Shown here one piece after another: positions 10,104 to 50,571 of a DNA stretch of 64,000 bases. Numbering within the stretch: position 1 is the first letter of the stretch; each line of letters starts with the position of its first letter. The DNA is taken from positions 4,504,235 through 4,568,234 of the forward strand of contig RQOL01000861.1 of assembly GCA_013076295.1 (NCBI GenBank). Direction: 5' to 3'. Below the pieces are notes generated by a model. The model did not search any database, was not told where the DNA came from, and worked only from the letters and a program-made list of their open reading frames with translations. Position numbers and translations under genes: made by a program. Source of the stretch: Sanderia malayensis. Lineage: Eukaryota > Cnidaria > Scyphozoa > Semaeostomeae > Pelagiidae.

Positions 10104-13100
10104 ATGCCTTCTCCACGACGAAGGAGAACAACAAATATCAATGAAAATAGCAGTGTTACTTCACCAAGTACGTATATTTTTATCTATTACTATTTCATTA
10201 ATTGACAACTATCAGCTGGCCTAGTCAGCCCTGTACATACTATAAATCACTTTATTGAAGCAGAAATGGACGTGTGAATTTGTTGTATTTTCTAATTAAT
10301 TCAAAATGAATATTTTATTAGAAATTATCTCTAATAATTTTGGAGAATATATATTTCTATTCATCAATGGAACACTGAACTTAAATTAAAGAATTAATTA
10401 TTCGATCGAGTAAAATGATGGATATGTGATAATTCTTACGAATAACAGTTGTAAATTATTCTCTCCAGGGGACAATATGATATGCAACGATAAATCAAGT
10501 CTTGTTGAAAGAAAAAGGCCAAGGATTGACATTAAAATGGTAGGATTTGCAACAAATTACCTCTTATAGGACTTCCTTATTAATTTTTTTTCCAATTATT
10601 TTATTTCTAGGAAGGCAACACAAACAAATTAAATCTAAATACATTTCTAAGATTTCGAAGATGAATTCAAAGCATTTCTTTGAAGGAATAGTTACAAGAA
10701 TAGCTTTTTATTTTTTACCATAACAAAATAATTTTCTTTCAGAGGAAAACAAATGAGACAACGAAAATAATATCAGCCAACTTGTGTACCAAAAGTATGT
10801 TTACATTAATTATTTTATATCACATATACTTATTTCTAATTACTTATTTTACCAATCTTTTTATCAATATTTCTTAAAATGAGTGCTGCTAGTACTTAAA
10901 ATGTGAAATGGTCGATCATATCCTTGGGTCACGCACATGGATCAATGAATCCTGAGACCAGTTTATCAGGTAGTATCATGTCAATAAATTTGAGCCCATG
11001 TGCACCCAGCACCCATGTCCAATGGCCATTGGCCTGTCCTCCTGTTAGCAGTACCAACAAAAGAGTATTACACAATTTATGACCTGTCCTTGTCGCACCT
11101 GTCAAAATTGGTTACCTGCAACTGTCCTTGCCTTCCAACCAAAACGAGGCTGTTGGCCATCGTGACGAATAAGCACCCGGCCCATTTTTTCAACCGGGTC
11201 TTTAGTGGTATCAATTTAGTCGTGCCCGGAATTTCAGACTCACCACCGGGAGCCTTTCAAATCACGAATGGCTCCCCTATGTTATTATCAACAAACTCAA
11301 TTACTCCTCGTCTCTTTAATTAGTTTGGCATGCGAACAATACCTTGTCCATTCAAACAGTTATTGGCGTATTAGATCCTCTTATCAGTGATGAAATAGAA
11401 AACCCAAAGGATTCCTGCGGACTAGCTCAGCTCTGCTATTGAAATTCTGCATGATAAAGTCGTGCAGCTCAGCCTATTAAAATCTCTGAAAATTAAAACA
11501 CAAGGCAGTGATAGATTTCCCCCAATCATTTCAAACGGTAACTGCCTTATGTTAATCAAAATCTAGCTTGCTCTAATGCCTTGCCGATGTCACTTAGCCA
11601 GCTTGAATATAATTTGTTCCTGAATAGCTTAATTAATTTCCTCGGATTTTTGTCTCCCACAAATTACCCAAGCATTATTTCTACCAAATTATGCTATAAA
11701 CGCGGTTGTTTTGCTGTACACATCATCCTATGCTTACGAGCAAACACCTTGTTGTATTTGTTTGGATTTCGTCCCTTTCCTCCTGTTTTCTTTGTACTCG
11801 ACATTCATTGTTCTCGTCGCATGTGTCATTAACTTAACGCTATTTATAAAGCGAATCGGTTTTTTACTGTTTAGACACAAGAAAGAAGCAGACTGCTTCT
11901 CTCGCCGTTGCAGTTGGCTATTTGCAGAAGATGTTGCCCGATGAAGTTTTATTGAAGCTGTGCTCGTATTGTGCCCCGTTGGAGCTGTGCAGACTGGCAG
12001 TTACTTGCAAGCGACTAAATGCACTGTGCAAAGACGATAGCTTATGGTGAGTAAAGCGAACTTGAAACACATATAATGAGCCTGTGTTGGGGCTGTGTTG
12101 TTGCATCTATAATAGCTCTGTTTTAGTTTCGATCCTAAATTTCAACACAACATCAGGTAAATTTAAATGATTTCATAAACACGTAAACATATAAAATTAC
12201 TAATGATGTCGGAGAGCAATCCAAAGGCGATTGGAGAACAGTGTAATATTTTTCTGGAAAATCAATTCGTTTCTTGTCGCAAATAAACATTGATTTGATG
12301 TTAATTGGATAATTCAATTCCATGGCAGAACATTTCGAATTTGTTAACAATGCATAGCACGTAAAGTTTTACCTTGCGTATGCCCAAGTATAATTAAATA
12401 CAGTTGCCGTTGTGTTGTATACACGTTTCAGCAGGGTCCTTTCATTTCAAAACTATTACAACTGCACCCTTGGCATCCCTGGTATTTTTAATTTAATTTA
12501 ACCATGCAATCTCTGTCGGATAAATGCAGGCCAATTTTTGATCTTATTCTCGTAAAGCTCTCGCTGGAATCCAAACAATGGCTAATGGTATGCTGAAATT
12601 CTCCCTTTCGACACTCCTGAAAAGATAACAGCAGTCAACATTAAATAATATGCTTATGGATTCGTTATCCACAAAAGGAATTAAGAATGTGTTTTCTATT
12701 CCACACAGCAAAGCAAAGGATCTGTTTCACAATTCGGTACGGCAAAACATGAACAAAAGTCAATTAGACACTGGCTGTTTTGTTGTGTGATTATCTCATA
12801 TGAGATGTAATGCGTGATCTAGTAGTAGAGATGAAAGTGCCTCTCCTATTCACTAGCAAATAAGGTGCTTCTTATTCATTTGATCGCTGCACACCATATT
12901 ATCCATACCATGTATGCATTGGCGTACAGGCAATGGACACCTCTCGAAGGACAGAGTGCGTGTAATAGAAACACAAGAAATCGTCATCATTATCGAATAG
13001 CTTTAGGTCAAATATGACAAGCAAGTTGACCCAGCAGTTATATCTCTTCTTTTCGGTGTACACTGCACTGCGCTGGTGCTAGAATATTCATACATGGAGT

Positions 13101-16100
13101 GTATTTGTGTTTTCAATCTCGCGACTCCAGCTATTCACTATGCAACCACATGATGATAATTGCGTGCCTGTGATTTCAACTGCAAGTAGCAGCATTACAC
13201 GCAGTATTGTACGCAACGAACACACAGTTAGCATACATAACCAACAACACACGATAGTATACTTAATTAACACACAGTAGTATGCACAACTAACCTGTGC
13301 ACTTTCCTTCGACACCATTACAGGAAAAGCTTATACGAGAGAGTATACAGATTTAAACTACCTATCCTGAAGGGAAGCAATCGTCTTTACGAGTCAGCAA
13401 ACAAGTCAGCGTCGTGTCTAGGCCTCACGTGGAAGGCGGCATTTCCTTTATTTGCCAAGGCTTACCACGTTACGAAGAACGACAAGGTCTTCAGGGATTT
13501 AACGTACATGCAAAGAAGGGTAAGGCATTGTTATCATGACTTAGTACACGTGTATTTCTGCTTGCGTTGATATTTATTTTTGTATCCAAGATTAAGTTTG
13601 TTTTATGTTTCGAATTGTTCGCATTTCAGTGTTTCAAGACAATAAAAGATGCCGTTTTGGAATGCCCCTCAGAAGGCACCATTCTAGTGCATCCTGGTAC
13701 CTACAAAGAGGAACTCACGCTGGAGAAGAGTATTTCTATTGTCGGCACTGGTGAGACCTTACTGTTTCAGATTTTTCATCTCTTCTTGTTGAGCTTTACC
13801 ATTCCCTGGGCGGTCCATGCATGCTATTGATGAACATTGCAATGTGGCAACGTGTATTTCTCATGCAGTTTATCCAGGGTTGAAAATGATTTTGTAATCA
13901 GAAGAGTTGATTGGCTTTTACAAAGTCTGCCCTTGTAAAGTGTATAGTTTCCAGAAGAGGCTATATCAGTCAAGCAAACATTGCTATTCATTGAACTGTT
14001 GATTCATTTGACTAATCTTTCGATACCTTTTACAGAAGATGCCATAACCAAAGAACTCCCAACAGTCACATGTTCAAATGGATCGATTTTTCGTTTGCGA
14101 CCAACAGCAACAGGATCTACTCTTGCCTATCTAAGACTGGAGGTAAATGACTTGGATTTGTTTCGTTCTTTCATTTTATTTTATGCTGCAATATTCTGCT
14201 ATGCATGGAGATGATAATGTCAGAGGCACCTGCTTTACTCTGCTACGTTCACGCTCTCGTTACTCTGTTCTAACATGCTGTATTTTCATCAAGGCGGCTG
14301 CTTCAGAGACTGGCAATCAAAGTCGAGGTCACTGCATAGAAATATGCAACGATTGTACGCCAATCATCCAGGATTGTTTCATTACCAGTAAAAATTCAAG
14401 TGAGTTTTTTCTCTTTTCTCTTCCACTCTATTTCGTCAATGAACGTATATTCGCCAATGCGCGGCACAAGGCTTTGCTTTCTCGTTTATTTGAAGTCTCT
14501 TGCTACCTGTCCCCAGAAGATTGAGCCCACTATTATACTGGTCAACTTAAGACTTCAATATCTAGCCACACCAAGTCATACTATTGACTTTGTGCATTGA
14601 TGTTATCACATGTTATCGCAGGCTCGTCTGCTGTGTTTGTGCATGGCGATGGCGCAAAGCCGAAGGTTGTGAGGTGCAAAATTGCGGACTGCGAGAACGT
14701 GGGAATATTCCTGACCGAAGGAGCCCAGGGAACGTACGAAGAGAACGAAGTGTGCAATAACCGACTTGCCGGCTTTTGGGTGAAAGGCAATGCCAACCCG
14801 GTTGTGCGCAGGAACGTCATACATCACGGTAGAGACGCTGGACTCTTCATATTCGATGGTGGACTAGTAAGTAACATCTAATCTTATCTCATCCTTTTTA
14901 CATTAGACCTTGCTTAAACAAGCTATTATCACTTTAGATTACTGCGTTAGATGGTTGACGTCTTAAGTACGTGTACAATGCCGTGGTTGATTTTTCCGCA
15001 TTTTATCTTGGTAATCCACTGCGTGTTTCAGTTGAGTTTGCTTAAATTTTATCAAGTTTGAATACATTCGTTTTTCAGGGATATTTTGAGGAGAACAACG
15101 TTCACAGTAACCGGATAGCTGGCTTTGAGATCAGATCCGGTGCCAACCCAACTGTCGTGAGATGTCAGATATACGGTGGGTCTACAGGAGGAGTATATGT
15201 TCATGATGATGTAAGCATAACGTGACTAATTGTTTTACCAATTGTGCTATTATTCAATACCTTACCGCCAAGGGACTTTATCCCCTTTTTCACTGGTTCT
15301 GTTTTCTCCTTTTTGTTCCTTGTTCTCTTCCTCTCTGCCTTCATTATGTTCTTTCCTCTTCTGTTTCTTCCAGTGCGTTTTAACGTATCTAAAACGACGC
15401 TTGTTCTGAACTCGATACTTGTTTGGTGACTCTGGTTAATATTTGCATTCATTCACCTTGCAGGGTCGTGGAGAGTTTATAGGCAATAAGATTCATTCAA
15501 ACACTTTTGCTGGTGTTTGGATAACATCAGGCAGCAATCCAACGATAAAGTACGCATTTCAAATGAGTAATTCAACTTTTACTTCTAAAGCCAAAGCTCT
15601 GCTTTCATTTGAATCTTGTCGCCATGGTTTTGTCGCCCTGGGCGTTTATTTAAACCAATTTGTATAGCATGTGCCATTGAATTTTCGCAAGGGGTACATT
15701 TCAGTTTTAAGTTAAGAACACGGTCAACAAAGATCATTGCTTTTCAATAGCAGTTTGGCACATTGAGAAACTCTGACGATTAACATGCAGGTTGACTTTT
15801 CATTGTTTGCATACTGTATGTTGTGTTGTGATGGGAGATTCGTCTTTTTGCAGAGACAATGAGATTTACCATGGTCAACAAGGAGGTATTTACGTGTTTG
15901 GAGATGGCCGGGGGCTAATTGAAAACAACGACATACACGGCAACGCGCTTGCAGGCATCCAAATCAGGTCGAACAGCAATCCAATTGTGAGACGGAATCG
16001 CATTCACCATGGTCTGCATGGAGGAATATACATTGTAAGCTTGAACATATTCAAATTGTTGCCAAGTACTTTGTGCAAATGAAAATAACATGAAATTTCA

Positions 16101-19100
16101 AGAGTACTCAATAAGTTAGAGTACAACAAGTTAAAAGCTGGCGGCTCACCTGCATCAATCGCTGCGAATGTTATGAACGTTTTTGGAATTTTTTTCAGCA
16201 CGAAGGAGGTCTCGGTCTCATCGAAGACAATGAAATCTACTCCAATACTTTAGCAGGAATTTGGATAACTACAGGTACGTCTCAAGACAAATATTCAAAT
16301 TTGTATTTCATCATTATCATCATCATCATCATCGTCATCATCATCATCATCATCATTATTGTGATTGTAAAGTAATTGTTGAGGCAGGTTGAGTCAGCCC
16401 ACGGGGCTGGTGTGGGTAGAGCTCGATGTTTATTGTATTGTTTTTATTTGTCAGGCAGCTCTCCAATTCTGAGGCACAACAGGATACACAGTGGCAAACA
16501 GGTGAGTGTTGTTGTTGTTGTTTTTCATTAGAAGCTCGTACAAGTGTTGATGTAGTCCGAGCTAGTTGTGCATGCAACTGGTATTACATGCAACAATGTG
16601 CTGTGTATGTCAACCTGTGTATGTCAGCATTAGAAAACGATGAATGCAATGATGCATTGCATACCAGGCGCATTCCCGTTGCAAATAAAGTCAATGAAAA
16701 TACTCTACCTTCTACAGAGATTCAATTTCGTATTTTTGACAATATAATATAAAGGTTCAAAATTTAAAGTTTAACTATTTTCATTCATAGGTCGGCGTTT
16801 ATTTCTACGATAAAGGGTGCGGCACTCTCGAAGACAATGAGATTTACAATCATAAATACTCTGGCATCCAAATAAGGTAACGGGAATATATTTATTTCTT
16901 TTTTACTATTTTATAAGAAAGCAAGACACATCTTGAGTTGAGTTGAGACTACAACAGACGACAAAATTCCTGGGAGCTATTGCAGCCTTCGAAAATTTCG
17001 CATCCATCTTTCATCCCCTTCCTCCCCCCCCCAAGCAATGTTGTCTCTAGAGCCAAATTTGTGCACTATCGACATAGCTCCATTTGCACGATGATTACAG
17101 GGGTCTGATCGAGAGAGCAACCTTGTTTTAGGGGGAGTGGGGTGTTGAGTATCAGAAGCTGGGTTGATAGTATGAATTTTTATCCGATATAGGCCTGTTA
17201 GACTCCATAAATAAAGCCATACAGCCATAAATTTTAGCAATTCAACGAGTTTAATTGACATTATTGCTGTACGTATGAGTTGATTAAAAATGTCAAAATT
17301 CTTTTGCAGGAGTGGAAGCAACCCAGTGATACGAAAGAATAAAATTTGGGGTGGCAAAAATGGAGGTGTGCTTATTTACAATGGAGGACTTGGCATCATT
17401 GAGGATAATGAGATCTTCGACAATGCTATGGCCGGCGTGTGGATAAAAACGGAGAGTAACCCGATCCTTAGGAGAAATAAAATTCACGATGGCCACGAAG
17501 GAGGAGTTTGCATATTCAATAACGGAAAGGGTATGTTCTTCCAATTCATCTATGCGGATAGTAATGTCAGATCAGTGTCGTTTCGGCTCGGGTGTAAAGT
17601 ATTTGAATGTGAGGTTGGAGATTGTAGCTTCCCAGGTTGCATGGATTCTGATTTTGTGGGCTTTTGTCTTGCCAGGACTGTTGGAGGAGAACGACATCTT
17701 TCGAAACGCACTGACCGGTGTCCTGATAAGCACGTCGAGTTTTCCAGTTCTGAGAAAGAATCGAATTTTCGAAGGCGGGGCAGCTGGAATAGAGATCACT
17801 AACAGTGCAGGTAAATACATTGATTATTGATTGATTGATTAAATGGTGCCCGGCCAAAAATGTAACTGTCTTTCAAGTGAGAGTAATGCTCGAATTACTG
17901 AAGGCAACAGACCAATAAGGCCTGTTGTTTCGTACTTAATGAGATAGCAAGATATATCAAGATATACCGAAATAGGATGTGGTTGAATTAAAATTAAACG
18001 AACTGGTCAATATTGACTGTGAGGCTGAACAGAAGACCGATCTTGGTAACATGTAGCATGATGATAATGTCAGGCTCCTTGACAACAAAGGGTGGATGTT
18101 AAGAATAGTGATAGTGTAATAGACTTGATTGGTTTGATGATTGAACACGCTGTCCATTGTTTATGCAGGTGGAGTGCTAGAGAAGAATGAAATATTCAAC
18201 AATCGGTTTGATGGTGTGAGCTTGGCAACCGGAGTGTCTCCAAAAATGTTAGGTAAGCAGCTTACCAAGCTATTATTGTTTTCTTGCCGGCGATTACTGC
18301 TGTATTCATTGCCACGTCATAAACCCGTTTAACAATTTTATGCAATTCTTTTCTTTGCTTGCATTCTACCTGATGTAGCCACATTTGATATGTAGATTTT
18401 CCTTTGCTGCTATCTTTAATCTTGTCCTCTCTTTTATTGCCGCTTCTTTCTGCGAATATTGCCTTATTGAAGCAGTAGCATTTACTTTATTTAAGACTTT
18501 TTCAACATTTTTCAGATAATTTCTGTCACGATAACAAGAAGGTTCTCACGGAGGCAGTGAATGCTGGCAAATGTTTATTCCAAGTATCAGGAAACCTTTG
18601 TTATCCAATGCACGACTTTTACAAGTACGTATACGTAAATATGAAATACCACACTATGTTTGTTTGATTTTGGTGTCCGTCACACTGGGAAATTTGATGC
18701 AACCATCCATTCTGCATCTGAGCTGCAATATCATGCAATATATGTATATCACATCAATCAAAATCGATACAGTAAAATACCGATAACTCGAACTTTCAAG
18801 GGACCGATGGACATGGCTCGAGTTAAGGAATGCTCGAGTTTTCAAGGATTAGAAAGTACTAGCAAAGTTTTCAAGGGGAATGAACATTGGTTCGAGCTAT
18901 GGAGGAGGGTTCGAGTTATCGGGATGTTACTGTATTTTATCATTACTGTCAATCATCGTGTAGATAGGAAGTTAAAACGTCGAGTTACTATTTTTTTGCA
19001 TTTTAATTCTGCTTTCTCTAGTGATAAATGCCATTTATCACCAGAAATGTCCTTTATCAGTTACTAATGCTGTTTTCTAACGAGAATCGTGTATGTTTTT

Positions 19101-19748
19101 GTAGATGTAAGACTTGTGCCTCTACAGAAAACCTGGCAATATGCGTCAACTGCATACGAACGTGCCACCAGGGGCACGATGTTCAATTCGTCAGACACGA
19201 CAGGTAAACGTTGATGAACGCTCTGCTCAGTACAGTAAAAACCCGCATATAAAACCTGTAAACTTCCACCCAGCCTATTGTTGCAAGACAATAGGCTATT
19301 GTTTCTTCTATTGTTTTGAGCAGAATATCACTCTGAAGGTTCTTGATCCATTGGTTCTTATATGCGGGATTTTACTGTATAGGAGTCCTATACTGAGCTT
19401 AGGAAATTGTCACAATTTTGTATTGACCCCTCCAAGGAACTAAGGAAATTCCAAAGTGGAACTCGTATTATGTTTCAATGCAAAAATATGGAAATTCAAT
19501 TTATGCAACATTTTTCGTTCAGGTTTTTTTGCGATTGCGGAGCTGGCACAACAACCACGACATGTCGCCTGGCCAATCTGAAGCCAGCTGTATCGTCTTC
19601 TGCGAAGGCGCGCTCAACAAGGTCGCCGAAGACACTCAGGTCAAGACAGAAGCGTAGTGCTGGTCGCTGTCTAAGAAGCGGACGCAGTAAAGCGACTCCA
19701 AATGTCAATCTATCCGATACTATACCACCTGAAACGATGGTCAGGTAA
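10104..19748 (+). CDS. FBXO11: F-box only protein 11-like: F-box, beta-helix repeats, UBR-box
   Basis: Substrate receptor of an SCF (SKP1-CUL1-F-box) ubiquitin ligase. Exons: 10104-10167 ([10 protein letters not shown] start), 10469-10539 (basic RKRPRI), 10743-10794, 11875-12045, 13323-13518, 13630-13751, 14035-14142, about 14293-14399, 14622-14866, 15079-15209, 15465-15549, 15854-16033, 16200-16274, 16455-16500, 16791-16877, 17310-17529, 17675-17811, 18168-18253, 18515-18625, 19105-19203, 19523-19748. The first three joins keep frame. The F-box is in the 11875 exon ([14 protein letters not shown]...[15 protein letters not shown]...DSLW). Next come about 18 right-handed beta-helix (CASH/PbH1) repeats of the form G(G/A)xxI.NNxIxxN. 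The two final exons carry the UBR-type zinc finger ([16 protein letters not shown]...CHQGHDVQF...FFCDCGAGT). The whole order matches vertebrate FBXO11, known to target BCL6 and CDT2. An AATAAA at 19935-19940 is a likely polyadenylation signal. Confidence 0.95.
16312..16358. repeat. (CAT)n microsatellite in FBXO11 intron
   Basis: Roughly fifteen CAT/ATC trinucleotides with one CGT and a few CATT interruptions, lying in the intron just after the 16200-16274 exon. Confidence 0.9.
18768..18934. mobile_element. 167-bp MITE with TACAGT ends in FBXO11 intron
   Basis: The left end TACAGTAAAATACCGATAAC and the right end (reverse complement TACAGTAACATCCCGATAAC) are imperfect inverted repeats of about 26 bp that continue into CTCGAAC. 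Internal copies of CTCGAGTT and TTCGAG are frequent. The TA at each outer edge suits a TA target duplication, as in the Tc1/mariner/pogo superfamily; the family name is inference. It is too short to encode a transposase. Confidence 0.8.
19231..19379. mobile_element. 149-bp MITE with TACAGTAAAA ends in last FBXO11 intron
   Basis: The left end TACAGTAAAAACCCGCATAT and the right end (reverse complement TACAGTAAAATCCCGCATAT) form a 21-bp nearly perfect inverted repeat. The interior has CAGCCTATTGTTGCAAGACA and CTTCTATTGTTTT. It begins 28 bp after the splice donor of the exon encoding the first half of the UBR box. A degraded relative lies at about 20930-21080. Confidence 0.85.
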
Positions 19749-21187
19749 CGAATTTAATTTGGTCACATCAATGTGGATTGCAAATGAAATCATATATTGG
19801 TTCTGGTTAACCATCCCTAATGTGGACATGGTCTGATTAAGTGTGACCATTTCTGGAAGGCGCAATTAAACAACGGACATCGGATGATTAAGCTGTAGTG
19901 ATCATAAAGAGATTCCCCTTTGAGGGGAAGGCGAAATAAAATTACTATTTTATTGTATTCACTTCACGAAAAATCTAGATGTGGTCACATAAAGAGAGGT
20001 TCCACGGAACAGAGTTGTTAGCTAATAATACATAGCAATTATAGTTATTATATACATCTATTCTACATACGTTCAATTAAATGACAGTGAAGATATTTGA
20101 CATCTTTCCAAATTTTTACGCAGTTTAGATTTCGGAAGGTACAGCTTCAGATAACTTTATACGCAGGGGAATGGTTTCTTAGTTTTCCAGATCAATATTG
20201 ACAATAATGCCCACAGTTTTTAATTTTCATGTATACGTGTTTTCTAATAAATAACAATCTGATAATCTCGCTTTACCCCAGTAGTATTGTGTCCATAAAT
20301 TTACAATTAATAAGTGCTTCTTTGTAGCAATTAAGAGTTATATATGTAATATAAAACAAATAAATATATTTATTTACATTGTATTTATGAGTAGTCAAAT
20401 GCTATCACATTGAATTGAAAAAATAACTTAACAAAACTTTTAGTTTTTACTTTGTTGCTTCGCCACGATATTTTACTTGGGGTTGTCTAGCCTCGTGTTC
20501 GTTTAATGAGAGGAACGGAAAGAGGCCAAGCGGCCTGAATTTAAAAATGGCACGAAACACGAGCTCATGAAACTTTGAGATTGAATGATTCAAGTTGATA
20601 TTACGAAGATTTATGTGTCCAGGCCATCTATTCATGCTCAGGAAATTCCTTAAGAATGCTAATTTGATAAATGGTAAGATGGGAGTTTTTGGTAAGTCCG
20701 TAAACTTTGTAAATAATTTGGAATCAGAAATATAATTTGGATTAGAACTGTGCTGTAACGAAAACGAGAAGGAGCCAGTCTCCAGAGTGCCTCACTTCTC
20801 ACCAAATCAAGTAAAAACTGTTCACATATGCAAATGCAAAAGTTTTATTTTGCAGAAGTTGATTGACAAAAACAGAATTAGAATTAGATTAGTTAGGTCG
20901 ACACGTAAGATTAGAATGACCTTTTGCTACCCAGTAAGCAAACGCATTAACAATCTTTTACATTTGCATCCAGCCTATTGTTCAAATACAATAGACTCTC
21001 ATCTCTTCTATTGTTTTCATCAGAAATGTTAGGATCAAAGTTTGTTGATCTGCTCGTTCTTTTTTACGGGCGTTTTCTGCAGTCCGTCAAGATTTAAATG
21101 AAAGGCATGAAAACAATTAGTATGTTTCCCTGTAAAAAATTGCTCAAATTTCTTTTCAACTTCCAAAGGACAGACTTGTCGAGTTGA
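19749..21187. other. FBXO11 3' region and intergenic DNA with a degraded MITE
   Basis: No exon can be supported here. The first 200 bp probably form the FBXO11 3' UTR (AATAAA at 19935). At about 20930-21080 a decayed copy of the 19231-19379 MITE is recognisable: it shares ATCCAGCCTATTGTT, an ACAATAGACT-like centre and TCTTCTATTGTTTTCATCAG. Confidence 0.55.
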
Positions 21188-22064
21188 TTAGTTTGCTGGA
21201 TGAATGCTGGTGCTTCTGCTCCGACTTCTGATGTGTCGGAAAACCTCTTGTTTGAACACATCACGCCGATAGAAGTAGATAAACGGATTGAGAGCGCTGT
21301 TCGCGAATATCAACATTGCCGTCCAACGGAACAAGTGATATCGTATCTCCGGATTCGTGACTACAAGCACAGATGCTCTCGGCGCAAACATTACGATAAA
21401 CACCAAAGAAATCATTGCGTAAGTATTCGATGTTTTTTTGCTTTGCTTTGAGATGATCTTGACAATGTGACCCCCATTTTCGACAAGTTTTCTTCTCTTG
21501 CTTTCAACCTGGCGAATATCGTTATATAGCAACAAGCCACGAGAACTATGATGAATAATATAATAATAATAATAATATAATAATAATAATATTGAACACT
21601 AATATTTTTCGCAGAATTGCTATCTTCACGACCTGTGACGTGTAAAAGCCGACCAGAATTATAGTGTAGATCCACTCAAAGGCAATCGCCAGCTTGAAGA
21701 TGGATTTTAGTGGCCACAATTTGCTTTTAATCGGGTAGACGACTTTTACGTATCGATGAATGGCAATGAGACCAATCGTCAGGCCGGAAACTCCGCTAAG
21801 AACATGAGCGCAGGTTTTGATAGAGACCTCAAGGAAGCAATTGTATTTATTCAGCAGGTCCAGTATGCGAAGCACGATGTTTGCAGGCATCACAGCCACG
21901 CCGTTGAGCAGATCTGTTACTGCCATATTTGTGAGCAAGATATCCTGTGTCGTCTTGTACATTTTGCCTCTATACATGATATATAGCATGATTGAATTGC
22001 CAAGAACTGCGCCAAATGCTATTGTTGTGCAGATACACGATGTGAAAATTGCGGAAAATGCCAC
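21188..22064 (-). pseudogene. Class A (rhodopsin-like) GPCR, intronless, with two frameshifts
   Basis: Seven-helix receptor reading in three frames. Frame 1 (22064 to about 21600) holds TM1 (GAVLGNSIMLYIMY), TM2 (NMAVTDLLNGVAVMP), a TM3 with IGLIAIHRYVKVVYP (HRY in place of DRY), and TM4. TM5 and the third loop continue in a second frame (IVLVACCYITIFARLKARE) after an AAT/TAA-rich tract at about 21550-21592. TM6 and TM7 (SLVFIVMFAPRAS; NSALNPFIYFYRRDVFKQ, the NPxxY-type motif) are in a third frame after a seven-A run (plus strand T run at about 21431-21437). The C-tail ends HPAN and stop. Both breaks fall in low-complexity tracts, so either a young pseudogene or sequencing indels would explain them. 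The ligand cannot be guessed; many cnidarian class A receptors are orphans of this kind. Confidence 0.82.
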
Positions 22065-23376
22065 CAGATCTTTGTTAATACTGTCAGTCAGTATGATTCG
22101 CTAAATTCAGAAGCAAATGTCCATTGCAGTTTGTCATGATTAGGCTTTGCTTGTCACGATATTCGCTTCTTTTTCTTGTTTCGCTCTGGATCGCTTTCCT
22201 CTGGTCATATGCTCTTCAATGTCATGTCAGTGTTGATATTTTTTTCAAATTTTGACTTCCCGAGCTTGCAGAACACACCTGCAACATACACATTTATTAA
22301 AGTAAATGATCATTTGTAAATTTTTGTGTCTAAGCTATTGTGTCCAGTCTTTTTGTTAGAACCATCTGCCTGGTCAGATTAATTTATACTCTCCAACGAA
22401 ATTATTCAACAATATCGATGCCTGGCAAAACGTTGGACACCATGAACCTTTTTTAGCCCCTAGCTTTGTTGCGTCAGCTCTTGCTTCCATGTGTGTGTCA
22501 GTAAGTATTGCAGGGTCAAGGCCAAGACGTTCCATCTCGCGTCGCGTTCTAACTCCCATTTTGCTTCTCTAGCAATGATGTCGTCAGGAAACAGACTGAG
22601 GTGCATGTTTTTCTACGTTCTCGTATTTCGGAAGAATCGAAAATCGGAAAAATCTCGATTTTACGATTATTGAGACATGTGACAACTGGGCTCTTCAGTC
22701 TTGGGTAACTTGCAAAGTTTATTATTTGTGGCGATTTATATTTGATATTTGCAACAAATTCATGAAAGTCTTTCAGAATTATTCTAAACTAATCTTTTGC
22801 AGAGTTTTAAAGTTTACAATGATACAAATTGTTTTAAAGTTCTTGGAAATAGCTTAAAGAATTTAACGCTCTTCTTGAAATTTGATGGGTTAATAATTCT
22901 TAATACTTAATACTGAGTTCAATAAGTTAAGAAACATTTATTTCTCAAACGTGGTTTGCTTTGATAAACATCTCTAGTTTATCTTACCATATTTTTTATG
23001 CATAGGAGAAAAATTGTTTACCGATGTATCAAGATGTTTTCCACATAACATAAATACTTTCGGCTGAACCAGCCAACGTTATTTTTGTTGAAAGACTGTT
23101 TTTAAGACAGTTTTTAAATCTTATACAATTTTAGATGAAACATATCAACTTAAGTTTGAATAGAAAATAACTCCCCCGAAGTAGAGGAATAATGGTTTTA
23201 TATGTTATTAACCATAGATGTATTATTAATTCAACAGAGTAATCATTATAACAATAATAATAATTATTATTATTATTTAATGCGATATCACACCACTTCA
23301 CAAGCTTGGTGGCTCGGCTAAAGCTACAAAGTACTAGCACAACAGTAAAACAGTAAAACAGTAAAAAGAAGAGAAC

Positions 23377-34440: not shown

Positions 34441-34540
34441 NNNNNNNNNNNNNNNNNNNNNNNNNNNNNNNNNNNNNNNNNNNNNNNNNNNNNNNNNNNN
34501 NNNNNNNNNNNNNNNNNNNNNNNNNNNNNNNNNNNNNNNN
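34441..34540. other. Assembly gap, 100 N
   Basis: Exactly 100 N, a conventional placeholder for a gap of unknown size. It directly follows the TAG microsatellite and falls where the rest of DNA ligase IV should be. Confidence 0.99.
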
Positions 34541-36329: not shown

Positions 36330-36663
36330 TTATGTACCTCTTGTATCGGTGTGAGGAGCATCACGTGGCCCGGCTTGGATAGTGATGATAGTATACCCGT
36401 GGTCTGGGGCGATAACAATTTCATTCTTTTTGCTGCGAATTCTTAAGAACGTCAGGTCGTTTGTCGGGTCCACATCCCTGACGGTGTGGCGAGCGAGTTG
36501 TGACAGTTGTCTGCAATGTTCTGTGTACAATTGCGTCGTCTGGTTGTCCAGGGTTGTCTTGACGGGAATGTCATCCTTGTTTACTACTATAACACCCAGT
36601 ACACCAGTGTGTGTCTTTATTCTTGACAAACAAGCCTCCACATCAGGACATGTCTTTGGTGCT
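36330..36663 (-). CDS. DYNLRB1: Dynein light chain roadblock-type (main exon)
   Basis: The Roadblock/LC7 light chain is a dimeric subunit bound to the cytoplasmic dynein intermediate chain. The exon starts after an AG acceptor at 36664. It reads PDVEACLSRIKTHTGVLGV, IVVNKDDIPVKTTLDN, HTVRDVDPTNDLTFLRIRSK and KNEIVIAPDHGYTIITIQ, which covers the whole family domain. It has a longer tail than usual (AGPRDAPHTDTRGT). The short 5' exon with the initiator Met was not located; it should lie at higher coordinates (possibly up to about 37.9 kb). Strand and family are secure; DYNLRB1 versus DYNLRB2 cannot be resolved. Confidence 0.92.
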
Positions 36664-37208
36664 CTGAAGAAACAAAGATTAATCAAATCACGAAATCTAC
36701 CTTCCCTTCTCCTTCGCCCGTCCTTCCCCTCTTATTCGCCCGCCCTTCCCCCCTTATTCGCCCCTTCCTCCCTCCATTGGGCATCCCAAGACAAATGCAA
36801 ATATTTGGCGCTAAGTTCAAGTGCAAATATTGATAAATTAATTATAATAGCGATAAATCATTATATTTTCATGCGTGATATATTGTTTTCATTTCGTTCC
36901 TAGAAATATTTGCAAAAACTCTTTCGACTCACATAGCTCCCCTCCAGCAAAAGATAATTAATTAAATCTTGATTCCACCCCCGTCCAATGCAGTAGGGCG
37001 CCTGGGCTAAGCCATTTTTGACTCCAGAGAAGCCGCTCAAAATCTTTGCAGAAGCGCACAATTGGCATGGCTTCATAAAAATAATGCGCCAATCAACTGC
37101 CTGCATTTTGCGATCACAAGTTTTCATAAGCGGGGGTAACTCGGACTCGGGTAAATCGCTTATCTACCTGATAATCCCGTTTGCAACAGACGAACTTCTT
37201 GCCACACA

Positions 37209-41029: not shown

Positions 41030-41663
41030 TTACCTTAAATTTGAGCATACATATCATCCAGTAGATCCAAAAGTATTAAATTTTATAACGTTTTTTGTAA
41101 TTCAATAAATTTAGGCCGGGTCCATCGCTCCGAAATAAACCATCAACCAGCGGCACGTCATATATGCTCCTGCGCAGTAACTATATATATGCTGCTGCGC
41201 ATACTGACAACCTTTCTCCTCCGCATGACGTGACCCTAACGCTAACCCTAACCCTAAGGCCAATGCATCAACCAGCGTCACGTGATATAGGCTCCTGCGC
41301 AGTACCTATACATATGCTACTGCGCATGCTGACCACCTTTCTCCTCCGCATGACGTAACCTTTATCCTAACGCTAACACTAACCCTAAGACCAATACATT
41401 CATCGGCGTCACGTCACATGTGCTCCTGCGCAGTACCAAAATATATGCTGCTGCGCATACTGACCACCTTTCTCCTCCGCATGACGTGACCCTAACCCTA
41501 ACGCTAACCCTAACCCTAAGGCCAATACATCAACCAGCGTCACGTCATATAGGCTCCTGCGCAGTACCTATACATATGCTACTGCGCATGCTGACCACCT
41601 TTCTCCCCTGCATGACGTAACCCTTACCCTAACGCTAACCCTAACCCTAAGGCCAATGCATCA

Positions 41664-42260
41664 GGCCTTAGGGTTAGGGTTCCAGGATTCTGAATCCAGT
41701 TTTGAGGGCTTACTTGAAAAGGATAAATCCATAACTGTGCATCAGAAAAACTTACAATTTTTGATGACCGAAATGTACAAGACTAAAAATGATTTAAATC
41801 CAGTGTTTATGAAAGAGATCTTTTGTGAAAATGACAATCACTATAATCTGAGAAATGGGAATGAATTTTCTGCTCCCAGAATTAGAACAGTAAAATATGG
41901 CTCGGAATCAATTCGTTTTAGAGGCCCACAAGCTTGGGCTACTGTTCCTCAGATTATTAAATGTTCCAGAACTTTAAAAGAATTCAAAAACCAAATAAAA
42001 TTTTGGTCTGGTGAAACCTGCCACTGCCGACTGTGCCAAATTTTTGTTCAAAATCTAGGCTTCATTTAAAATCACATTAACATTTGTAACATTTGCATCT
42101 AATCTCTTATTAACATTTGTGTAAATTGAATCTTTTTATTTGTAATTTGAATTTTGTATTGTGAAATCTTAAATATCAGTAGTTGGCCTAAATTAGCTTT
42201 AGTATAGCTATATATCCAGCCAACTTTAAATAAATTAGTAATAATAATAATAATAATAAT
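41664..42260 (+). mobile_element. 5'-truncated non-LTR retrotransposon (LINE) inserted in the satellite
   Basis: A frame ending at 42069 encodes the C-terminal tail of a LINE reverse-transcriptase protein: HYNLRNGNEFSAPRIRTVKY, GSESIRFRGPQAWATVPQII and LKEFKNQIKFW. An untranslated tail and a (TAA)n run (about 42237-42260) follow. The satellite unit is broken at GCATCA/ACCAGCG, and ATCA is present at both borders. The first 18 bp (41664-41681) are an inverted copy of the satellite's own telomere-like block. Confidence 0.88.
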
Positions 42261-42624
42261 CAACCAGCGTCACGTCATATAGGCTCCTGCGCAGTACCTT
42301 TACATATGCTACTGCGCATGCTGACGACTTTCTCGTCTGCATGACGTACCCCTTACCCTAACGCTAACCCTAACCCTAAGGCCAATGCATCAACCAGCGT
42401 CACGTCATATAGGCTCCTGCGCAGTACCTATACATATGCTACTGCGCATGCTGACCACCTTTCTCCCCTGCATGACGTAACCCTTACCCTAACGCTAACC
42501 CTAACCCTATGGCCAATGCATCAACCAGCGTCACGTCATATAGGCTCCTGCGCAGTACCTTTACATATGCTACTGCGCATGCTGACGACTTTCTCGTCTG
42601 CATGACGTACCCCTTACCCTAACG

Positions 42625-42940
42625 CTATCCTCACTGTGATATATTCTGACACGTGACCAGGATAAGATAATTTATGCATTTTTACTAGTAATATCCGGGA
42701 TATTTCTATCTCCCAGAGGGGAATAAGGGTATATATATTGGTTCCTCGTGGTTATCACAGTTCTCTAACAAATACGCACCAAGTCAGAGAATTTGGTGGT
42801 CTAAGTTTCGACGACCCACCCACCTCCCGCAGCGACGGAAGCCAAATTCCCCCTTCTCCTTTCAAATAGCGAAGCCTCCTTCGCACTTTCCACATCTTAT
42901 CCATATTTGAAAGGAGAAGAATAGAGAACAGTGAGGATAG
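42625..42940. mobile_element. 316-bp MITE with 13-bp perfect inverted ends inside the satellite
   Basis: The ends CTATCCTCACTGT and ACAGTGAGGATAG are exact reverse complements. An inner inverted repeat pairs CTTCTCCTTTCAAATA (about 42853) with TATTTGAAAGGAGAAG (about 42904). Both flanks are satellite sequence, so it inserted after the array formed. Confidence 0.85.
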
Positions 42941-43680
42941 AGTACTAACCCTAACCCTAAGGCCAATGCATCAACCAGCGTCACGTCATATAGGCTCCTG
43001 CGCAGTACCTATACACATGCTACTGCGCATGCTGACCACCTTTCTCCCCCGCATGACGTAACCCTTACCCTAACGCTAACCCTAACCCTAAGGCCGATGC
43101 ATCAACCAGCGTCACGTCATATAGGCTCCTGCGCAGTACCTTTACATATGCTACTGCGCATGCTGACGACTTTCTCGTCTGCATGACGTACCCCTTACCC
43201 TAACGCTAACCCTAACCCTAAGGCCAATGCATCAACCAGCGTCACGTCATATAGGCTCCTGCGCAGTACCTTTACATATGCTACTGCGCATGCTGACCAC
43301 CTTTCTCCCCTGCATGACGTAACCCTTACCCTAACGCTAACCCTAACCCTAAGGCCAATGCATCAACCAGCGTCACGTGATATAGGCTCCTGCGCAGTAC
43401 CTATACATATGCTACTGCGCATGCTGACCAACTTTCTCCCCTGCATGACGTAACCTTATCCCTAACCCCAACACTAACCCTAAGACCAATACATCCATCA
43501 GCGTCACGTCACATGTGCTCCTGCGCAGTACCAATATATATGCTGCTGCGCATACTGACAACTTTTCTCCTCCGCATGACGTACCCTTTACCCTAACGCT
43601 AACACTAACCCTAAGACCAATGCATCCACCAGCGCACGTCATATATACTCCTGCGCAGTGCCTATATATATGCTGTAAAA

Positions 43681-44622: not shown

Positions 44623-45483
44623 TTAAAGAAGCAAGAAAATAAAAGCAGAAACAAGGCTGCTTGAAAACAAGACATGGGTGGCAAAAATAAAATGCATTTT
44701 ACAAGCATTGTCAGGTCGAACTGGTGTAGGTGGAAATGGAAATGGATCATCAACAACAATTTTTTTACAGTTGGGGCATGCTCGAAGAAACTGACAGGAC
44801 TTGCCTTTGGCACATGTTAAAGTGCAGTTCTCCTTGCAGGATAAAGTCCCAGAGGTTACTTTGCTGAATTTGACGTCACACCCTCCTTGATCACAAGCTG
44901 CTTCACAGTGAGGCGACTTACAGTGAATTGTGCAATTCTTACCAAAGCATCTTGGATAGCACTGTGGCGGACGCTGTGGATCACCACCTTTGCCTGTACA
45001 GCTAAGTTTGCAATTATCTTCCTGGCAAGTTGGATAGCATAAATGTGCCATGCAGTTCATGTCTGGGCAATCCTTTTTACATGTCAGAGAACAGATCGAA
45101 GTCGAAGGCTGCAGATTATGAAACAGAAGTATGACATCTCCTGAACATTTAAAGTTTATCAGTCAGTTTCAGATTTCAATATCAATTTAGTTAGATTAGT
45201 TAATTAGTTATTAACCAGAGCTTACCGTATTTTTGTCTTTGATTGGGACATCACATGCCATTTTAGTACAATTACCCGATAAACATTTGGCCTCACAGCC
45301 AGCGGTTGACTGGCAAGACGTTTTGCAAGGACTTGCTGAACAAAATTGTTTGCATGTTGCAGCTGTATTTTGGCATGTTTTGAGGTCACAAGGTGAAGAT
45401 GTACAATTTTTAATTTCGCAACTGACACCGTCTAAGGACATACCAAACAAAACAAACAAGCAAGCAACAATTCGTAACTCCAT
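44623..45483 (-). CDS. Cysteine-rich secreted, probably GPI-anchored protein, tandem copy A
   Basis: I do not recognise this family. Exon 1 (45483-45226) starts MELRIVACLFVLFGMSLDGV, a clear signal peptide, then a Cys-rich part (CTSSPCDLKTCQ, CSASPCKTSCQ, GCEAKCLSGNCTKMAC). Exon 2 (45108-44623) joins in phase 0: SICSLTCKKDCPDMNC, CYPTCQEDNCKLSCTGKGG, NCTIHCKSPHCEAACDQGGC, then ENCTLTCAKGKSCQFLRACP. A Pro-rich linker follows (FPFPPTPVRP). It ends in a hydrophobic tail without a cytoplasmic part (FSSSLVSAFIFLLL), which suits a GPI signal. The protein is about 247 residues with short C-x3-C and C-x4-C spacings and several NCT glycosylation sites. A 5' non-coding exon may end near 45829 (donor on the minus strand at TTCTTACC). 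The start was chosen because the signal peptide begins there, although the frame stays open further upstream. Confidence 0.82.
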
Positions 45484-45549
45484 GATCTGAGGAATTGAAA
45501 ACAAATATTTCATGACTCCACGAAATGCAAATGACAAAGGATTAGGCAT

Positions 45550-46620
45550 TAATTCAATAGGCCTACTTTTTTATGAGTCATCATTTTCGAAGTGTGACTT
45601 TCGGGTTTCTAACTTGCTTGTGTCTTAAGAACGATACCTTTTGATTGCAAAATAAAGCATATGACTTAAATCATATCTATTATTCAACAAATAACGACAT
45701 AAGATAGCAACAGAAAAGTTCAACAATCTGCTTCTTGCCTTGAATGGCGTGGTTTTTCTGCATCAGGTCTGTTCGATAATATAAAAGTATAGTAATAATT
45801 CAGCTACTATTCGTAAAACACTCTTCTTACCTTTATGAACATTGTTTCATGTATATATATCCAAGTAAGTACATATATATATGTAGTTATTTATCTAGGA
45901 GGAGATGAAACTGAAACTTCGGAAGAAGGAACCAACAATTCTTTGGAACCAACCGACCCAACCCAAGTGATGAGATTTCCCATTCCCTCACCTTGGTGGG
46001 TGGGGCGAAGTGAAGTTGGGCAACTTGTTCAAGACTCTTGACGTCATTACATTGGAAACCATAAGAAAGAGAATATAAAGAACGAATATAAAGGGAGAAA
46101 GAGAATTGGCAATTCCATTTGAATAACTCAAAATATTATCTCTGACAAATACTGGAAATCTAACCTCTTGTGGAAGACAACGATTTGTATTCTCTCGTAG
46201 ATCAGTTGCGGTGGCAAAAAAACGCTAAAAAATTAAGTTGCTCAAACAATGTACCCCTTGAGCTTGATTGGCCTGTGATTTATATGGTGATGAACATGAG
46301 GATGAAGAAGACGAAAATGCTCAAAATGTCAAAATAAATGGGAAAAGCGCGAAATTATATGCGTACATGATTAACTTTGATGAACATTGACCATTTCTGT
46401 GTGTATTTCTGTCTTCCGAAAAAACAAACTTTCGGGTGAATAAAACTTTCGGACAGCAAGTACTTTCGGATAATTAAATTTGCGGACACAATTTTGTCCG
46501 AATGGTTCACAATATAAGTGAAGTGAATTATGTTAAACAGTAACATAACAGCAATAGCTAATAATATATAAAATTAATATATAAAATTAATTAGGATCAA
46601 GTAAAAGAAGAATATTAAAC
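45550..46620. promoter_or_regulatory. Duplicated upstream region of copy A
   Basis: This region is repeated upstream of copies B and C: TCGAAGTGTGACTTTCGG, ATAAAGCATATGACTTAAAT, the GCGTGGTTTTTCTGCAT block, AATTCAGCTACTATT, a CTTCTTACCTTTATGAAC splice donor-like site (minus strand) and TATATATATCCA. It therefore probably holds the promoter and first non-coding exon. AGAGAATTGGCAATTCCATT at about 46100 recurs at 51230 upstream of copy C. No coding frame is seen. Confidence 0.6.
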
Positions 46621-46779
46621 TTAGCATAATTATAACAATTTGACAGAATAAGGCTGAGAATCAAGATAATTGCTAGTTTATTATTCAAAAATTAAAATAA
46701 AATTAAAATAAGGATTAAATTTGAAATAAATAAGAATCAATTAAAAAAACAAAATACAAATTCAAATTGAAAGAGGATT

Positions 46780-47338
46780 CAAATACGATTATTTATTATG
46801 ATTATTTACAAATGAAAATCAACTGGTCAAGCTTTGTTTGTAATAAGCCATGCTTTATAATGCTTTGCGAAAGTGCTTTATTTTTTAACTGCCGTAAATC
46901 AAAAGGAATACTATTCCAGATTTTGACTCCATTATTTATGACGCTTTGGTGCTACGTATTGGTTCTTATCGCAGGTTGTGCAAACAAACCAGAGGTTGAT
47001 TGTCTCGTTAATTTATCATGTCTACTCTTTATTAACTGAAAAAGGCAGCAAAAGCTTTTATCGGGATTGTTATTACTAATTTCATGCATAAATTTAGCAC
47101 ATTCCATTTTGTAGAAATCATTGAGGCATAGAAGTTTTAATTCGTCAAATAGAGGTTGACTGTTAGCTGTTTTGGACCGAAAAGTGATTAACCTTACAGC
47201 ATGTTTCATGCTTTTTCTTAAAGGGTCCAGATTAGTATTGTATCCGATTTATAATACCATAATTAACGGGTGGCTGAATGAATGCATTGTAAATATTAAC
47301 AAGTATATTTCTTGGGGCAAGGTGCCATTCAATGTAAA
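46780..47338 (-). mobile_element. Decayed LINE fragment (reverse transcriptase C-terminal part)
   Basis: On the minus strand from about 47300 the reading contains NAFIQPPVNYGIIN, then a stop, KHAVRLITFRSKTANSQPLF, DELKLLCLNDFYKMECAKFM and further down GVKIWNSIPFDLRQLKNK. This is the usual end of a LINE-encoded protein, with in-frame stops. It starts where copy B loses similarity to copies A and C, so it sits in or replaced the 3' flank of copy B. It differs from the LINE at 41664-42260. Confidence 0.8.
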
Positions 47339-47388
47339 CAAAAGCTTTACAAGAAAACATGAAAGATAAAAATGAGAACACTTCATTA

Positions 47389-48247
47389 TTAAAGAAGCAA
47401 GAAAATAAAAGCAGAAATGAAGCTGCTTGAAAAAAAGACATGGGTGGTAAGAAGAAAATGCCTTTTACAAGCATTGTTAGGTCGAACTGGATTGGTAGGT
47501 GGGAATGGATCATCAACAACAAATGTTTTACAGTTGGGGCATGCTCGAATAAACCGACAGTTCTTGCCTTTGGCGCATGTTAAAGTGCAGTTCTCCTTGC
47601 AGGATACAGTTCCAAAGGTTACCTTACTGAATTTGATGTCGCACCCTCCTTGATTACAAGCTGCTTCACAGTAAAGCGACTTACAGTGAATTGTGCAATT
47701 CTTACCAAGGCATCTTGGATAACAATCTGTTGGATTCCGTGGATCACCACCTTTGCCTGTACAGCTAAGTTTGCAATTATCTTCCTGGCAAGTTGGATAG
47801 CATGAATGTGCAGTGCACTTCATGTCTGGGCAATCCTTTTTACATGTCAGATGACAGATCGAAGTCCGAGGCTGCAGATTATGAAACAGAAGTATGACAT
47901 CTCCTGAACATTTAAAGCTTTATCAGTCAGTTTCAGATTTCAATATCAATTTAGTTGGATTAGTTATTTAGTTATTAACCAGAGCTTACCGTATTTTTGT
48001 CTTTGATTGGGACATCACATGCCATTTTAGTACAATTACCCGATAAACATTTGGCCTCACAGCCAGCGGTTGACTGGCAAGACGTTTTGCAAGGACTTGC
48101 TGAACAAAACTGTTTGCATGTTGCAGCTGTATTTTGGCATGTTTTGAGGTCACAAGGTGAAGATGTACAATTTTTAATTTCGCAACTGACACCGTCTAAG
48201 GACATACCAAACAAAACAAACAAGCAAGCAACAATTCGTAACTCCAT
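47389..48247 (-). CDS. Cysteine-rich secreted, probably GPI-anchored protein, tandem copy B
   Basis: Same two-coding-exon plan as copy A. Exon 1 is 48247-47990; its signal peptide and first Cys-rich part are identical to copy A in translation. Exon 2 is 47871-47389: SICHLTCKKDCPDMKC, then the same Cys framework with NCTIHCKSLYCEAACNQGGC and NCRFIRACPNCKTFV. A shorter Pro linker (FPPTNPVRPNN) and the hydrophobic tail (FSSSFISAFIFLLL) follow. The protein is about 246 residues. Exon 1 is far more conserved between copies than exon 2, which carries most of the replacements. Its downstream flank is replaced by a LINE fragment. Confidence 0.82.
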
Positions 48248-48313
48248 GATCTGAGGAATTGAAAACAAATATTTCATGACTCCACGAAATGCAAATGACA
48301 AAGGATTAGGCAT

Positions 48314-49680
48314 TAATTCAATAGGCCTACTTTTTTATGAGTCATCATTTTCGAAGAGTGACTTTCGGCCTTGTAACTTGCTTGTGTATTAAGAACAATA
48401 CCTTCTGATTGCAGAATAAAGCATATGACTTAAATCATATTATTCGACAAATAACTACATTTGAATTAGATAACAACAGAAAGAGTTCAAAAATCTGCTT
48501 CATGCCTTGTTGATGGGCGTGGTTTTTTCTGCATCGACAAGCAAGGTCTTTTCGATAGCATAAAAGTAGTAATGATTCAACTACTATTTGAAAAACAATC
48601 TTCTTACCTTTATGAACGTTGTTCCTTCCACGTATATATATCCACGTGTATATATATATATATATATGTACTTATTTATCTACGAGGAAATGACACTGAA
48701 AGTTCGGGAAGGAACCAACCGACCCAGATTACCCGCAAGCCCAGGGTTTGTAGTAGCTTGTTCAAGACTCTTGACGTCATACATTAGAAACAATATAATA
48801 CAGTCAAATCTGCATAGTTCGAGCTCGTGTAATTCAAACTCTATCTAATTCGAACGAAATTTTCCGTCCCTTCAAGGATCACTAATGAACCAATTCTTAT
48901 AAAAAAAAACCCTCTATAATTGGAACTTTTTGTAATCCGAACATTTTCACGCTTCCCCAGGGTGTTCGAATTAGACGGAGTTGACTGTAGTAAGAAAGAG
49001 AATATAAGAAAATAACAAAGAACTGCATTCAATTATGTGACAATAAGTCAATAAAATACAATGCTGCTGTGCAAAATACCACAATCAGGGGGCACTGCCG
49101 GGGTGTAGATGGGGGTGTGACACCACCCCCGTAGCACCCAAAATCATGCTGTGCGAATACACTTCAGAGAAATGAAATTATAGGCACGCACTTTGCAATT
49201 AATCCATGCATGGAAGATTCAACGGAGTATTTGCAGAGTGGAGTGTCCGTGAAGGAAAAAGATTTATTCTTGAAAATTGTAGCAGATTAAGAATAGTTAA
49301 TACTTCGTACATGGAAGTTCTTTAAAGTTTACGGCAATGTATAACTATAACCATTTCAACTATACTTAGTAAAGTTGAAATGGTAAACCACTGCACTGCA
49401 CACCCACTGCACAGTAAAGATGCGCATGACATCAAATATATGCTTACATGCTCCTTCGCCCATAGAATACAATACATAGAAGACAAAAACAGCAATCATC
49501 AGACGATCAACATTTTTAATACTTGTATATAGAGCATCTTTATAATCTCACAAAACTAACAAACATAAATCACTGATAAACTATTACTTGCAGTTCACAA
49601 TCAATTTAAATAAAAAGCTTAACAAGAAAAAAATAAATATGATAATGAAATATAATAAGATAAAAATGATAACACTTCAT
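48314..49680. promoter_or_regulatory. Duplicated upstream region of copy B, with MITE, and downstream flank of copy C
   Basis: 48314-48780 repeats the upstream block of copies A and C (including CTTCTTACCTTTATGAACG and the ATATATAT run). A MITE follows at 48799-48989. From 49005 the sequence AACTGCATTCAATTATGTGA begins a block that recurs at 51388, marking one edge of the duplicated unit. 49310-49680 matches the downstream flank of copy A (44200-44620). No gene lies in between. Confidence 0.6.
48799..48989. mobile_element. 191-bp MITE, TACAGTC ends, TTCGAG/GAATTAG interior
   Basis: The left end TACAGTCAAATCTGCATAGT and the right end (reverse complement TACAGTCAACTCCGTCTAAT) are inverted repeats that run on into TTCGA. 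TACAGT ends and TTCGAG words link it loosely to the element at 18768-18934. It lies upstream of copy B and is absent from the corresponding places of A and C. Confidence 0.75.
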
Positions 49681-49682
49681 TA

Positions 49683-50571
49683 TTAAAGAAGCAAGAAAAT
49701 AAAAGCAGAAATGAAGCTGCTTGAAAACAAGACATGGGTGGTAAGAAGAAAATGCATTTTACCAGCATTGTTAGGTCGAACTGGTAATGTGTTATTGGTA
49801 GGTGGTAATGTGTTATTGGTAGGTGGGAATGGATCATCAACAACAAATGTTTTACAGTTGGGGCATGCTCGAATAAACCGACAGTTCTTGCCTTTGGCGC
49901 ATGTTAAAGTGCAGTTCTCCTTGCAGGATACAGTTCCAAAGGTTACTTTGCTGAATTTGATGTCACACCCTCCTTGCTCACAAGCTGCTTCACAGTAAAG
50001 CGACTTACAGTGAATTGTGCATTTCTTACCAAGGCATCTTGGATAGCACTCTGCTGGATTCTGTGAATCACCACCTCTGCCTGTACAGCTAAGTTTGCAA
50101 TTATCTTCCTGGCAATCTGGATAGCATAAATGTGCTGTGCAGCTCATATCTGGGCAATCCTTTTTACATGTCAGATGACAGATCGAAGTCCAAGGCTGCA
50201 GATTATGAAACAGAAGTATGACATCTCCTGAACATTTAAAGCTTTATCAGTCAGTTTCAGATTTCAATATCAATTTAGTTAGATTAGTTATTTAGTTATT
50301 AACCAGAGCTTACCGTATTTTTGTCTTTGATTGGGACATCGCATGCCATTTTAGTACAATTACCCGATAAACAATTGGCTTCACAGCCAGCAGTTGACTG
50401 GCAAGACGTTTTGCAAGGACTTGCTGAACAAAATTGTTTGCATTTCGCAGCTGTATTTTGGCATGTTTTGAGGTCACAAGGTGAAGATGTACAATTTTTA
50501 ATTTCGCAACTGACACCGTCTAAGGACATGCCAAACAAAACAAACAAGCAAACAACAATTCGTAACTCCAT
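49683..50571 (-). CDS. Cysteine-rich secreted, probably GPI-anchored protein, tandem copy C
   Basis: Exon 1 is 50571-50314 (MELRIVVCLFVLFGM signal peptide; GCEANCLSGNC instead of GCEAKCLSGNC). Exon 2 is 50195-49683: SICHLTCKKDCPDMSC, CYPDCQEDNCKLSCTGRGG, KCTIHCKSLYCEAACEQGGC, NCRFIRACP. The Pro-rich linker is longer than in A and B through a duplicated PPTNNTL unit, which adds NNT glycosylation sites. It ends in the same hydrophobic tail (FSSSFISAFIFLLL) after NNAGKM. The protein is about 256 residues. One NCT site of A and B is lost here (KCTIHC). This is the most upstream copy of the array. Confidence 0.82.

Follow-up and report, generated by a model that had tools for sequence, protein, structure and literature searches.

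Among described cysteine-rich proteins, keratin-associated proteins carry CC-rich repeats, metallothioneins have C-x-C motifs as their hallmark, and minicollagen-type cysteine-rich domains (CRDs) show the motif C-x3-C-x3-C-x3-C-x3-CC beside a collagen stretch. The avian eggshell membrane protein CREMP also contains cysteine modules, spaced C-x4-C-x5-C-x8-C-x6 in the accessible portion of PMC3068167; the family described here is like CREMP, as that portion presents it, in having repeated cysteine modules in a secreted structural protein, but its spacing is C-x3-C-x4. The family is represented by three tandem genes (copies A, B and C) in a 64,000-nucleotide stretch of the genome of the jellyfish Sanderia malayensis (the window, on contig RQOL01000861.1, called C815 below; the genome searched comprised 184,004,477 bases in 918 contigs). 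On our best reading, A–C are beta-solenoid proteins of a disulfide-laddered type and probable glycosylphosphatidylinositol (GPI)-anchored surface proteins.

Structurally, the array spans exactly positions 44623-50571 of the minus strand, and each gene consists of two coding exons separated by one phase-0 GT..AG intron of 117–118 bp (118, 118 and 117 bp in A, B and C), encoding proteins of 256, 246 and 247 residues, respectively. The three-copy, two-exon layout proposed in an earlier note on this DNA, made from the letters alone, thus holds. Repeat families D1 and D2, which cover the coding parts of A–C, are 89–98% identical, and the duplication is therefore confirmed as recent. The coding features are as follows.

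50314..50571, minus strand: copy A coding exon 1, with signal peptide and first 11 lattice cysteines (donor GTAAGC, phase 0)
50196..50313, minus strand: copy A intron, 118 bp
49683..50195, minus strand: copy A coding exon 2, with 21 cysteines, NCT sequon, PPTNNTL stalk repeats, GPI-like tail and stop (the exon modelled as a beta-solenoid)
49782..49831, minus strand: 21-bp repeat, 2.4 copies, encoding the stalk repeat of copy A
47990..48247, minus strand: copy B coding exon 1
47872..47989, minus strand: copy B intron, 118 bp
47389..47871, minus strand: copy B coding exon 2
45226..45483, minus strand: copy C coding exon 1
45109..45225, minus strand: copy C intron, 117 bp
44623..45108, minus strand: copy C coding exon 2

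Each protein begins with a hydrophobic N-terminus, carries N-glycosylation sequons (five in A, four each in B and C), and ends in 20 uncharged hydrophobic residues preceded by a Pro-rich stalk, with N-A-G/C upstream of the tail. By sequence rules, the signal peptide, the small residues at the putative omega site and the hydrophobic tail with no cytoplasmic end fit a GPI signal, and A–C are probably GPI-anchored. This supports the earlier note in its reading of cysteine-rich, probably GPI-anchored proteins with a signal peptide. An upstream AG lies within each of the three introns (50196-50313, 47872-47989 and 45109-45225); used as an alternative acceptor, it would extend exon 1 by EMSYFCFIICSLGLRSVI (EMSYFCFIICSLRLRSVL in copy C) before a stop, possibly yielding an unanchored short form.

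The cysteine spacing, which the note had called irregular, is instead a regular lattice. A–C contain 34–35 cysteines in 246–256 residues, and gaps of three or four residues between successive cysteines make up 24 of 33 in A and 24 of 34 in both B and C, against means of 5.4–5.8 and maxima of 14–15 in 2000 shuffles of each protein (mean 5.4 and maximum 14 for A). Gaps of three and four mostly alternate, the most frequent cysteine–cysteine distance by autocorrelation is 9 in all three copies, and both CC pairs and C-x-C (count at lag 2) are zero. The spacing of A–C is a C-x3-C-x4 lattice plus a few larger loops, and departs widely from chance. A cysteine content this high might suggest a metal-binding or thiol-buffering, metallothionein-like protein, in which case the ‘keratin-associated protein’ name borne by one database relative (below) would mirror cysteine content only; we consider this very improbable, since C-x-C is absent from A–C, no Pfam family matches, the signal peptide implies an oxidising secretory route, and the cysteines lie on strands of the predicted solenoid and are partly lost as across-turn pairs. 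A cnidocyte product, whether a disulfide-cross-linked capsule-wall or tubule protein or a stinging-cell surface protein, would suit a jellyfish host, and nematocyst minicollagens do contain cysteine-rich domains (according to the available part of PMC12549020). Lacking CC pairs and collagen repeats, though, A–C are not of the minicollagen CRD type, and a GPI-like tail would be unexpected in a capsule protein, so that this origin appears quite unlikely; the available part of the venom proteome PMC7766711 gives no sign of the family, but that paper reports toxin classes and is thus no test.

Searches of Pfam, NCBIfam and PDB sequences returned no match of weight, in keeping with the note’s ‘unknown family’. 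In Pfam, both exons of copy A and the seven members of profile A1 hit no family at E up to 10, and EGF, ShK and Ly6/uPAR domains were accordingly rejected; in a separate Pfam search with seven proteins, one gave a weak SPRR2 row (E 9.6) below the family cut-off, and other weak chance rows in the domain and PDB sequence searches stood at E 0.65, and at E 0.37 and 0.48. Judged by titles and the starts of abstracts, no paper appeared to describe the family, with most subscription papers outside the coverage and absence therefore unproven.

The AlphaFold model of copy A exon 2 is a beta-solenoid, with block pLDDT of 89–97 over residues 1–120, successive parallel strands in stacked coils, and 17 of the 21 cysteines on strands; a beta-solenoid fold for the ectodomain is thus likely on this model. 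The CARP domain of cyclase-associated protein, the AlgE6 R module and the bacterial self-associating protein 4kh3 resemble the overall beta-helix (root-mean-square deviation 2.1–3.1 Å over 94–111 residues) but differ at 4–8% identity: these solved structures share only the fold with the exon 2 model, with no sign of common descent, and we know of no comparable cysteine lattice in them. Against the PDB, Foldseek found nothing reaching E 0.001 with the two structure models, nor did a viral fold library give a match at that threshold. The last 130 residues of P0003, a database relative, score low in its model and show no family likeness by eye. An ice-binding (DUF3494-type) protein, prompted by weak Foldseek rows, is unsupported.

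Protein database searches returned three matches for copy A, 11 for profile A1 and nine for profile A2, query members included. The only match carrying a species name is P0007 from Rhopilema esculentum, automatically named ‘keratin-associated protein 4-9-like’, which is 45% identical to copy A over 84% of its length and shares the cysteine lattice, a signal-like start, the VDDPF junction and a hydrophobic tail, but has lost two lattice cysteines (141/146, P0003 numbering), gained another, and bears an Arg in the tail. Vertebrate keratin-associated proteins are like the family in their high cysteine content, and annotation has carried the name over, but the family differs in having a signal peptide and no CC pairs; with zero CC pairs in A–C and no Pfam match for P0007 or the seven A1 members, this identity was rejected. 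Further relatives are three-unit proteins of about 490 residues (P0009–P0012 and P0014), conceivably coral-like, in contrast to the single unit of A–C; P0012 is without a hydrophobic C-terminal tail. The jellyfish profile matches the three-unit profile at a probability of 96.9% (E 1.5e-10, 131 columns), and 27 of the 32 columns holding P0003’s cysteines before residue 205 are also Cys in P0009, P0011, P0012 and P0013, the other five being 36, 43, 96 (where Cys is one column off), 190 and 193.

Cysteine pattern was controlled for with 300 shuffles in which every Cys was kept fixed, applied to nine protein pairs. Seven of the nine exceeded all shuffles, among them the Sanderia paralogue on contig C809 (below) against P0009, P0011 and P0012, P0007 against P0012, and P0003 against P0011 (z 4.4–5.0), whereas A against P0012 (z 2.8) and P0008 against P0012 (z 2.5) were each reached by 4 of 300. 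P0003 holds both exons in a single frame, whereas P0015 has an identical exon-1 part and diverges after VSPVK, which is what splicing of P0003, but not of P0015, would produce; the pair points indirectly to transcription, in a relative only.

Elsewhere in the Sanderia genome, C809:1839272-1840169 is a distant paralogue, 38% identical to A, with the same two-exon, phase-0 structure and an intron of 229 bp. A genome search with P0012 matched exon 1 of this gene (E 2.0e-5) and an intronless frame of 388 residues at C781:3075540-3076703 (E 4.6e-5), which combines a cysteine-rich part with a stretch rich in Ser and Thr and ends hydrophobically. The C781 frame is backed by BLASTP with P0012 and P0014 (E 1e-9 and 6e-10), met nothing but itself in a genome search with a threshold of E 0.1, and has a looser lattice (18 of 32 gaps of three or four, with 9 not the most frequent distance); its likeness to the family rests largely on cysteines, and it is a probable member of different architecture. 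At an exon-1-like match on C894 (E 0.73), no overlapping frame passed the cysteine-rich filter. With relatives in Rhopilema, at two further loci of the Sanderia genome and among three-unit proteins, the family is wider than the narrowly lineage-specific one first suggested.

The existence of three-unit proteins raises a possible addition to the beta-solenoid reading, namely that tandem genes are spliced together, with the GPI tail and the next signal peptide removed, to give multi-unit proteins. In EukProt model P0006, exon 2 of copy A (..VRPNNA) is linked to exon 1 of copy B at a point past the signal peptide (DGVSCEIK..), a donor-like GTAAAA lies at the junction point in all three copies, and P0008, from another source, carries one unit and, after it, a second that has no signal peptide. 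Against this, P0006 then leaves the correct frame and, as does P0004, reads on into the PF03259 (roadblock-type) gene at 36.3 kb, the pattern of an over-merged gene model, and we regard such splicing as improbable. Both models comprise stretches of the array, and their fusion with the PF03259 frame (36330-36731) is probably annotation merging.

Mechanistically, residues i and i+4 of a beta-strand face the same side, and C-x3-C would for that reason place two core-facing cysteines on each strand. We posit that each C-x3-C occupies one beta-strand with both cysteines inward, that each x4 forms a tight turn, and that every coil, about 18 residues long, comprises two strands, with disulfides linking cysteines that face each other across a turn and cystines taking the place of the usual hydrophobic core. 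The outcome would be a short, rigid, protease-resistant rod. Several of the lost cysteines are across-turn neighbours (P0007 and P0005 lack 141/146, and the three-unit proteins lack 36/43 and 190/193, P0003 numbering), and this paired loss suggests cystines closing the turns; exceptions are the Cys gained by P0007, the one displaced at 96 and the C809 shifts at 36 and 106/110. On these comparisons, across-turn pairing seems somewhat better than an even bet. The secreted protein of about 250 residues would be GPI-anchored on the outer cell surface through its short Pro/Thr/Asn stalk, and the use that we favour for it is as a repeating unit, structural or adhesive, in an epithelial surface coat (glycocalyx or mucus interface). 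A surface-coat or adhesion role is plausible but short of probable, and the whole reading, of GPI-anchored, disulfide-cored beta-solenoid rods for surface coat or adhesion, is evenly poised.

The number of genes appears to differ between haplotypes. Contig C834 contains a complete gene as well as an exon 2 broken by a gap, and at C815:4593622 there is an exon 1 with a gap after it. The aligned piece at C815:4593474 stops at copy-A position 4554397 and that at C834:53610 starts at 4554396, and the two partial copies therefore look like one second-haplotype gene split by scaffolding. The second haplotype thus seems to hold two genes (H2a and H2b) versus three in the assembled one, such that the three copies originally reported stand for the assembled haplotype but not for the contigs resembling the other. 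C815:4555277-4578776 has a second copy at 4594641-4617900, aligned as three pieces of 98.9, 93.5 and 98.3% identity, and C834 matches the window in three pieces left of the window’s N gap (99.3–99.97%) and three between the array and 4538775 (90.6–94.4%). About 20 kb of C834 beyond 62869 has no match of at least 400 bp in the fetched part of C815, and joins at gaps are therefore uncertain. The window’s own gap (34441-34540) is a 100-N scaffold join with uncertain adjacency across it, and window 11023-20715 equals C815:4494235-4503896 at 99.2% identity, so that 9.7 kb occurs twice in the scaffold, once on each side of an N gap lying shortly before the window’s left end; this is probably an unmerged haplotype. 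The available part of PMC7305137 mentions haplotype merging for the Rhopilema assembly, not for that of S. malayensis.

Evolutionarily, the two exons differ. Exon 1 is most similar within haplotypes for B–C (257/258) and H2a–H2b (254/258), whereas A–B (249/258) and A–C (250/258) are no closer than some between-haplotype pairs (A–H2a 248, C–H2a 248, B–H2a 247, A–H2b 247, C–H2b 246 and B–H2b 245 of 258); exon 2 places B beside H2a (440/450) and C beside H2b (432/462). In five pairs tested, introns are 98.3–100% identical versus 89.0–95.2% for exon 2 (Fisher p 0.0015 or less in four pairs, 0.06 in A–B). The simple reading would be gene conversion in the 5' half, in B–C and H2a–H2b only. Exon 2 varies among copies with no cysteine lost. 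One could envisage a diversifying recognition or defence receptor, a constant GPI-anchored fold whose exposed residues vary by copy and haplotype and bind microbes or other individuals. In its favour, the substitution ratio omega is higher in exon 2 (0.40–1.28 in ten pairs; 0.59–1.47 in six pairs for its ectodomain) than in exon 1 (0–0.51 in six pairs), exon 2 is 89.0–97.8% identical versus 98–99.97% in longer flank pieces, stalks are of unequal length among copies, and gene number is two versus three between haplotypes. Yet omega exceeds 1 in only one of the ten exon-2 pairs (A–C, on 7.5 synonymous changes), predicted loops hold no excess of variable sites (among non-Cys positions, 17 of 51 on strands and 12 of 48 in loops vary, p 0.39), just a handful of genes were found, and there is no cytoplasmic part; such a receptor is unlikely.

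Around the array, a 131-bp tandem minisatellite with CCCTAA telomere-like runs lies just downstream (41141-41663, 42259-42627 and 42945-43674) and has at least 299 matches genome-wide on many contigs. Open frames at 46952-47248, between B and C, and at 41485-42069 are presumably, by eye, fragments of LINE (long interspersed nuclear element) reverse transcriptase, and a rhodopsin-type G-protein-coupled receptor frame (PF00001, E 3.5e-12) occupies 21546-22100.

Taken more widely, we tentatively suggest, with considerable doubt, an undescribed cnidarian-wide surface-protein superfamily with a cystine-ladder beta-solenoid core, represented in jellyfish by single-unit GPI-anchored proteins and elsewhere by secreted three-unit ones, with neighbouring single-unit genes maybe spliced together. 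At least two jellyfish have this cysteine-rich family, and relatives exist beyond them; ‘keratin-associated protein-like’ names mask it, and the domain libraries searched lack a model of it. Should the predicted fold hold, C-x3-C-x4 would be a simple sequence code for disulfide-cored solenoids, recognisable in cnidarian genomes; the family would also be of interest as a very stable scaffold and for the construction of animal surface coats.

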